Assembly: GCA_024280295.1 (NCBI GenBank)
Contig: JAJRQK010000021.1
Coordinates: 1-64,000, forward strand
Source of the DNA: Bacteroidota bacterium
GTDB lineage: Bacteria > Bacteroidota > Bacteroidia > Flavobacteriales_D > Crocinitomicaceae
DNA: 64,000 bases
Reading direction: 5' to 3'
Part shown: in pieces, positions 58,014 through 59,180 of the stretch
Layout of the letters: each line of letters begins with the position of its first letter
Numbering within the stretch: the first letter of the stretch is position 1
Made by a program: the position numbers and the translations under genes
Notes under the pieces: model-generated
The model's database searches: none
Told to the model about the DNA's origin: nothing
What the model saw: only the letters and a program-made list of their open reading frames with translations

Positions 58014-59180
58014 ATGAGAATTTTACTTGGTCTATTTCTTCTGATTGCTCAACTGAGCGGGGCACAAATGTCGCCAAGTTGGTTTCATCATTACCGACCA
58101 TTAGATTCAAATAATGTAGTCTTATTCGAGTTAAAAACGATTAACGATACGATCTTGCTTTCTCGCAGTGATTCACTGACATTTCAATCTGGCTATAAAC
58201 GATATCAATTTAATTTTACAATCGATACTGGAGAAAATGTGCAATTTCTGATTTCTCAAAGTCTGAATAACGATGGTTTAAATTACAACTGCTCACATCC
58301 ACTAGACATCCTACATTTAGGAGATACTGGGCATGTTACAATCTGTTTCCCCGGAGCGCAATTCTCGCCACCATACGACCTCACTACAAAGTACATTGTT
58401 AATTCAAACACCTCCAAGAGAGATACATTAATTATAAATAGACACTTCGAATGGCGGGATCAAGATACCATTCATACAAGTCTAAGCCTTGGGGATTCGA
58501 GTTTAGTTATTGTCGAGCATACAGCAACTATCAAGCCTCAAATGATGTTTCTTAACCTACACGAAAATGAATCAACAAGTATTGAGGCATTGAAAATTGT
58601 AGCTGACACAATTCCGATCGACTATATTTATCTAAAACATGGGGGAGAACGAAGAGTTGAGTTTTCCAATAACGACCAACAATACTCAATCGATCCAAAC
58701 AGAATTTACACTAAAGTTGGAACAGAAGCAACACTCAACGAAAATGATCAATTAGATGAATTTGGTCTAGTGACTAGCGAATTTTTGGCTCATAGAATTT
58801 TTCAAAAACTGCAAAAAGGAAAATCCGTAATCTCGGTTCACAACAACACTCCTGATGAATACTCTATTTTTAGTTATCTTCCTGACAGTAGTGAAGCAGG
58901 AAACACGAGACAATTATTCATCAATGAAGCTGCCGATCCAGATGATTTTATCTACACAACAAACCTTTTGGTTTACCAAGCAGCCAAGAGAGATAGCATC
59001 AATGTGATTCTTCAAAGTGACGATAATTTGATTGACGATGGGTCATTATCCGTTTACTGTGGCATTCAAGGTATCCTCTATGTGAATATTGAAACCGAAC
59101 ACGGTCACTTGAAAGAACAAATTCGACTTATTTTTTGGACCCGAAATATCGTTCAAGAGATTCTAAACACTAAGGAATAA
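58014..59180 (+). CDS. Secreted M14-like metallohydrolase, divergent family
   Basis: A 388-residue protein with a signal peptide ending LSGAQ. The N-terminal ~170 residues are beta-rich with no recognised domain. The C-terminal ~210 residues show, in order and at plausible spacing, the catalytic residues of M14/aspartoacylase-type zinc hydrolases: H183-x-x-E186 in FLNLHENESTS, N229-R230 in SIDPNRIYT (compare D-x-N-R-N of carboxypeptidases), H276 in ISVHNNTPDEYSI, and E360 in YVNIETEHGH. Zinc carboxypeptidases use H69/E72, N144-R145, H196 and E270. I recall similar LHxNE/DPNRIxT proteins only as hypothetical. Substrate unknown. A TACTTTAG box 14 bases upstream of the ATG may be its promoter. 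Confidence 0.65.
   Translation: MRILLGLFLLIAQLSGAQMSPSWFHHYRPLDSNNVVLFELKTINDTILLSRSDSLTFQSGYKRYQFNFTIDTGENVQFLISQSLNNDGLNYNCSHPLDILHLGDTGHVTICFPGAQFSPPYDLTTKYIVNSNTSKRDTLIINRHFEWRDQDTIHTSLSLGDSSLVIVEHTATIKPQMMFLNLHENESTSIEALKIVADTIPIDYIYLKHGGERRVEFSNNDQQYSIDPNRIYTKVGTEATLNENDQLDEFGLVTSEFLAHRIFQKLQKGKSVISVHNNTPDEYSIFSYLPDSSEAGNTRQLFINEAADPDDFIYTTNLLVYQAAKRDSINVILQSDDNLIDDGSLSVYCGIQGILYVNIETEHGHLKEQIRLIFWTRNIVQEILNTKE

Follow-up and report, generated by a model that had tools for sequence, protein, structure and literature searches.

In the present study, we analysed a window of 64,000 nucleotides from a Crocinitomicaceae bacterium, in which the gene at 58014..59180 (plus strand, as are all features of this gene given below) very probably encodes an exported zinc hydrolase with the fold of the M14 carboxypeptidases and aspartoacylases, representing a family that has not been catalogued. 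The reading frame, the conservation, and the predicted fold were established directly, and from these we infer the zinc ion, the catalysis, the roles of single residues, and the substrate. The frame comprises 388 residues with zero internal stops, the opposite-strand frame over the same interval contains many stops, and a full-length homologue in another genome (L002/L007, genome G016) is 59-60% identical to the window protein. In the window's own genome (G000), the gene had one match at E<=0.001.

AlphaFold2, supplied with a 14-row alignment, modelled the full protein with a mean pLDDT of 74.9, and the block means were 81-98 from residue 151 onward and 33-66 before it. The catalytic domain (residues 150-388, 58461..59177), with a pLDDT of about 90, is predicted to adopt an M14-like alpha/beta core, in which a strand at 177-181 leads into the HENE motif and is followed by a helix at 187-199, strands at 215-219 and 222-226 precede DPNR, a strand at 271-278 carries H276, and a strand at 356-362 carries E360 ahead of a final helix at 366-387. 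When the whole 388-residue model was compared with the PDB by Foldseek, all 22 matches at E<=0.001 (E down to 1.3e-05) were M14 or AstE/AspA-type structures, including 4oko, 8eip, 5hvg, and 1cps, which we take to be of this kind although their titles do not name a family; the TM-scores were low (0.28-0.48) and the rmsd values high (7-12). Ranks 1 and 2 were AstE/AspA structures. In VIA-align, in which Z values of 7-8 are typical for models without a clear match, the best 50 of the 195 chains that reached Z 8 all fell in the M14/AspA superfamily at Z 12.9-14.0, some of them by name and others by our own placement. The best match among those listed was Csd4 (Z 14.0, rmsd 3.7, 182 residues), together with a carboxypeptidase from B. 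cenocepacia (Z 13.7), MpaA (Z 13.7, rmsd 3.0, 181 residues), the succinylglutamate desuccinylase 3na6 (Z 13.5, rmsd 3.2, 182 residues), and human carboxypeptidase A1 (Z 13.4, rmsd 3.5, 204 residues). Since these best 50 of 195 chains lie within about one Z unit, no subgroup is singled out.

Regarding the conserved residues, 58 loci from the genome searches and the contig scan described below were reduced by the removal of 16 identical copies to an alignment of 42 distinct domain sequences, in which some near-copies remain and from which the plasmid proteins described below were excluded. Eighteen positions are invariant in all 42 sequences (H183, E186, R213, D227, P228, N229, G236, H276, N277, N278, Y288, Q334, D342, G343, S344, S346, N358, and E360), a count that has to be read with the tendency of profile or pattern searching to favour sequences that keep their motifs; the peptide-pattern scan included the E360 motif, and three of the 42 (L017, L018, and L019) came from that scan only. 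H183 and E186 of the HxxE motif (58560..58571) are predicted to be zinc ligands, and H276, near the end of strand 271-278 in the H276-N277-N278 motif (58839..58847), is the predicted third. N229-R230 within DPNR (58698..58703) is a candidate pair for binding the carboxylate of the substrate, and E360 (59091..59093), on the last strand, is the predicted general base. D342-G-S-x-S346 (59037..59051), which precedes the last strand, is a signature of the family and may form a specificity loop. R213 (58650..58652), which is absent from the list made in the sequence-only reading, is a newly spotted candidate for the counterpart of Arg127 in carboxypeptidase A or Arg63 in aspartoacylase (ASPA), as judged by order and spacing: its distance to N229 is 16, against 17 from position 127 to 144 in carboxypeptidase A.

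For the comparison of spacings, we took His69 and Glu72 to be the corresponding positions of carboxypeptidase A. The spacing in the window protein is H-3-E, E-43-N, N-47-H, and H-84-E, compared with 3/72/52/74 in carboxypeptidase A, for which Asn144, His196, and Glu270 are given in PMC7706225, and 3/46/46/62 in aspartoacylase, according to PMC5412892. PMC7706225 also describes His196 as binding zinc and Asn144 and Glu270 as conserved in active enzymes, and PMC3940198 assigns the general base to Glu270, the oxyanion to Arg127, and carboxylate binding to Asn144 and Arg145. In aspartoacylase, zinc is bound by His21, Glu24, and His116, and the catalytic site contains Arg63, Asn70, Arg71, and Glu178, as described in PMC5412892. 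Every one of these known roles has a candidate in the window protein (H183, E186, and H276; R213, N229, and R230; E360), the mapping being based on order, spacing, conservation, and the place of the residues on predicted strands. In the proposed mechanism, a zinc ion would be held by H183, E186, and H276, and the water bound to it would be activated by E360; R213 would steady the oxyanion, N229 and R230 would hold the carboxylate of the substrate, and one amide bond would be cut in a small substrate, either peptide-like or an N-acyl amino acid.

The sequence-only reading had named all of these residues except R213 and had noted that they follow the order, and roughly the spacing, of the M14 enzymes. 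The translation places each of them at the position given, the comparison with carboxypeptidase A and aspartoacylase bears out the order and the rough spacing, and in the 42 sequences all are invariant except R230. The alpha/beta core that had been expected was the one returned by AlphaFold2, Foldseek, and VIA-align, and a fold of another kind was not seen among the matches listed. R230, the seventh of the seven canonical M14 positions, the other six of which are invariant, is kept in 38 of the 42 sequences and is replaced by alanine in L055 and L056, by glycine in L045, and by asparagine in L057, and these exceptions belong to two separate branches of the tree. Their loss of this arginine, taken with the existence of M14 pseudopeptidases (described in PMC7706225), would suit a dead relative that only binds peptides; we nevertheless hold this to be highly unlikely, since a dead enzyme would not be expected to keep E360 and all three of the predicted zinc ligands in 42/42.

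Motif order by itself is weak evidence, and it is the conservation that carries weight. A four-site pattern with loose spacing was found in 8 of 424 ORFs from outside the family, of which five came from loci fetched as M14 or AspA, a choice that enriches the background for such proteins; a looser five-site pattern matched 20 of the 424 and was discarded as useless for filtering. The three remaining ORFs, for which no M14 or AspA identity is known here, together with the failure of the profiles to connect (see below), might be taken to mean that the protein is not M14-like at all and that a chance order of motifs has met a generic alpha/beta resemblance. The invariance of the motif residues themselves and the M14/AspA identity of the best 50 of 195 VIA-align chains, at Z values above the 7-8 of unmatched models, make this explanation extremely improbable. 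The M14-like reading is supported by the predicted fold and the conserved residues in combination; having a fold in common is no demonstration of function.

On sequence profiles alone, the family is not tied to M14 or AspA. We aligned the 42-member alignment locally by hhalign with AspA sequences (20 loci fetched, from which 15 were chosen by their motif) and M14 sequences (13 of 15, with L072 and L073 dropped). The comparison with AspA scored 17.8, below the reversed control of 19.1, with 4 of 60 column shuffles scoring as high, and that with M14 scored 17.5 over 14 columns containing no catalytic residue, with a reversed control of 14.0 and 8 of 60 shuffles as high. The AspA and M14 alignments, when set against each other, reached a probability of 0.8%; since they also miss one another, these results indicate low power of the test rather than a lack of kinship. 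Along the non-significant path to AspA, HENE pairs with HGDE, DPNR with DLNR, and H276 with the AspA histidine. The M14 profile PF00246 was unmatched by the window protein (P0001) and by the members of A2, A4, and A8 that were scanned (6, 14, and 16, respectively), and the same proteins left the AstE/AspA profiles PF24827 and PF04952 unmatched; elsewhere in the window's genome, there were three matches to PF00246. Because the family is M14-like by fold and residues, yet without profile membership in Pfam M14 or AstE/AspA, we file it as a separate, uncatalogued family within the M14 fold. The distinct M14-like clade proposed in the sequence-only reading is upheld by the fold and the conserved residues and receives no link from sequence profiles.

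In Pfam, the window protein had a single weak match, to DUF6452 at E 0.1, and in NCBIfam zero matches; for the scanned members of A2, A4, and A8, matches were scattered over one or two members each and formed no pattern, the best of which in Pfam were CagA_N (E 0.0012) and DM13 (E 0.0029) and in NCBIfam reached E 0.033. We took these to be chance matches, none of those listed being to M14 or AspA. PADLOC gave no match for P0001 and P0004, PHROGs gave E 0.15 at best for P0001, P0003, and P0004, and a sequence search of the PDB returned nothing up to E 10 for P0001 and A2; for A8, it returned designed TPR proteins only (E 0.25-0.3), which were not considered relevant. Among the papers listed by the literature searches, none dealt with the family, as judged by titles and the starts of abstracts.

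The family is patchy across Bacteroidota and extends into Gammaproteobacteria, in which two species carry it on plasmids, as judged from matches in genome searches, a contig scan, and a plasmid search. A protein search matched 6 of 60 genomes, a profile search of the order 23 of 399, every one of them in the window's own family (Crocinitomicaceae), and a profile search of the phylum 15 of 395, in nine families as the tool numbers them; each of these counts includes the window's own genome. The peptide-pattern scan of named genome contigs gave 13 loci, including Crocinitomix algicola, a Segetibacter MAG, a Chitinophagales MAG, and another Bacteroidetes MAG. Among plasmids, tblastn found five records, one from Legionella adelaidensis and four from Piscirickettsia salmonis, all labelled 'hypothetical protein', whereas viral contigs and phage records yielded no confirmed relative. 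The two plasmid proteins that were read by eye (L134:4944-5588 from L. adelaidensis and L135:4878-5660 from P. salmonis) keep H-x-x-E, the arginine, DPNR, H-N-N, D-G-S-x-S, and the glutamate, and in a tree of 44 rows both formed long branches of unsure placement. Each of these two relatives adjoins a divergent gene that encodes the substrate-binding protein of a transporter.

Gene neighbours, which were compared across 34 sources, many with short flanks, give nothing on function or substrate. On the same strand of the window, the order is a DUF5686 protein, a DNA topoisomerase, the M14-like gene, an AIR-synthase-like protein, a peptide chain release factor, and a protein of the OMP-decarboxylase family. 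A topoisomerase gene lies upstream of the family gene in the window, L008, L010, and L015, and an AIR-synthase-like gene lies downstream of it in the window, L007, and L015. The gene for a transporter, of the MFS type as judged by eye, directly follows the family gene or is near it in L009, L012, L014, L016, L026, and L030, among which L009 and L026 carry an identical protein. The DUF5686 gene (window:53129-55663), two genes upstream of the M14-like gene, encodes a CarboxypepD_reg-like N-terminal domain. Further away, a gene for an LptC-related lipoprotein (window:52090-52698) follows that for a TPR-like protein, and the overlap listed for these two frames is probably an artefact of the mechanical choice of start codon.

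The first 18 residues of the window protein (MRILLGLFLLIAQLSGAQ, 58014..58067; hydropathy peak 2.71) form a probable signal peptide with a putative cleavage site after them. Export had already been proposed from the sequence, and by a crude hydropathy cut a hydrophobic N-terminal stretch is present in 41 of the 42 members. The beta-rich N-terminal domain described in the same reading was found only in the window protein and its G016 homologue (L002/L007) and is not a feature of the family, its strands being seen in low-confidence models. A lipobox was found in 6 of 42 members by a crude test, and inspection by eye of the annotated proteins of Legionella and Piscirickettsia showed no obvious signal. 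The probable export signal of almost all members, along with the lipobox of some, makes a location in the periplasm or envelope probable, where the enzyme would act on, for instance, peptides of the cell wall or scavenged ones.

The accessory beta-rich domain comprises residues of about 34-149 (58113..58460). When a two-row profile was searched against 150 family genomes, only the window's genome and G016 matched strongly (E about 3e-85), the next match being at E 0.0057, and the sequences of these two form one clade with a support of 100/100. Predicted alone, the domain had a mean pLDDT of 46. In hhalign, its second half scored 24.1 (probability 14%) against DUF1573 (PF07610), with a reversed control of 10.7 and 1 of 200 shuffles as high, using an alignment of 20 sequences that was obtained from 25 fetched loci after removing three without the CGC motif and two in the wrong frame (L099 and L117); the window protein was not listed for the Pfam profile of DUF1573 up to E 10. 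The domain may be DUF1573-like, and, the fold of DUF1573 being Ig-like, we regard this as a weak lead to an Ig-like domain and not as an assignment. DUF6452 (PF20050) was also considered for residues 41-95 and was dropped (13.2 bits where the cut-off is 27.1, and no match in 40 relatives). The extra domain perhaps serves binding in the lineage of the window protein.

With respect to the substrate, we lean towards periplasmic or cell-wall peptides and place an AspA-like deacylase second; we take the protein to be a secreted zinc peptidase or amidase, with peptides of the cell wall or others in the periplasm as its possible substrates. As a special case of this explanation, it may be a murein peptide amidase or DL-carboxypeptidase that is exported and cuts the gamma-D-Glu-diaminopimelate bond of stem peptides. 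The presence of Csd4 and MpaA among the top structures listed, a domain of approximately 230 residues that equals MpaA in size (chains of 234-241), and the probable export signal of most members make this a serious possibility, which we nevertheless rate as short of probable: digestive carboxypeptidases and enzymes of the AspA type score within about one Z unit of Csd4 and MpaA, so that the fold cannot choose the substrate, the patchy occurrence within the phylum is unlike that of a core cell-wall enzyme, and the seven neighbours scanned include no cell-wall gene. A deacylase of the AspA/AstE kind, which would strip the acyl group from an N-acyl amino acid and cut no peptide, appears unlikely, though worth keeping in mind. 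The top Foldseek ranks, VIA-align values of Z 13.1-13.5, the resemblance of the E186-N229 and N229-H276 spacings (43 and 47) to those of ASPA (46 and 46), and the sequence HGTE in the distant member L054, near the HGDE of AspA proteins, are consistent with it. However, the C-terminal beta domain of AspA is missing, since the window protein stops after its last helix and has no PF04952 match, and a search of the window's genome for PF24827 gave nothing at E<=0.001.

Returning to the exported zinc hydrolase of M14 fold, we tentatively raise the less than even prospect that H-N-N and D-G-S-x-S replace the usual specificity elements of M14 in this mostly exported family and that its substrates form a class new to M14, with two branches lacking the carboxylate-binding arginine; if so, some members would not be carboxypeptidases. 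The present analysis assigns a probable fold to a family whose annotated copies are labelled 'hypothetical' and which the profile libraries tried had missed, and it offers a candidate active site with residues that can be tested. If active, the family would be a branch of divergent sequence within a large enzyme class and a candidate for the turnover of envelope peptides in Bacteroidota.

Among known systems, Csd4 of Helicobacter pylori (PDB 4wcn), an M14 DL-carboxypeptidase, shares the M14 core over 182 residues, but is only 12% identical and longer, with chains of 414-420 residues. Its first zinc ligand is Gln46, versus a histidine in the window protein; the title of PDB 4wcm names a Gln46His variant. 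The murein tripeptide amidase MpaA (PDB 5hxd and 4axv) is similar in its compact M14 domain of approximately 235 residues (Z 13.7 and 13.3), with an identity of only 16% and 14%, respectively, and is cytoplasmic, whereas most members of the present family have a probable export signal. AstE/AspA proteins (PF24827 catalytic, PF04952 hybrid) have the same order of H-x-x-E, R, N-R, H, and E and a matching fold (Z 13.1-13.5); in contrast to them, the present family lacks the C-terminal hybrid domain, with the window protein ending at residue 388 after helix 366-387, its profile score lies within the controls, and most of its members have HENE, HEDE, or HDNE in place of HGDE. From Peptidase_M14 (PF00246), the family is set apart by the lack of a profile match in any member scanned, while it shares the fold and six to seven of the canonical residues with that family.
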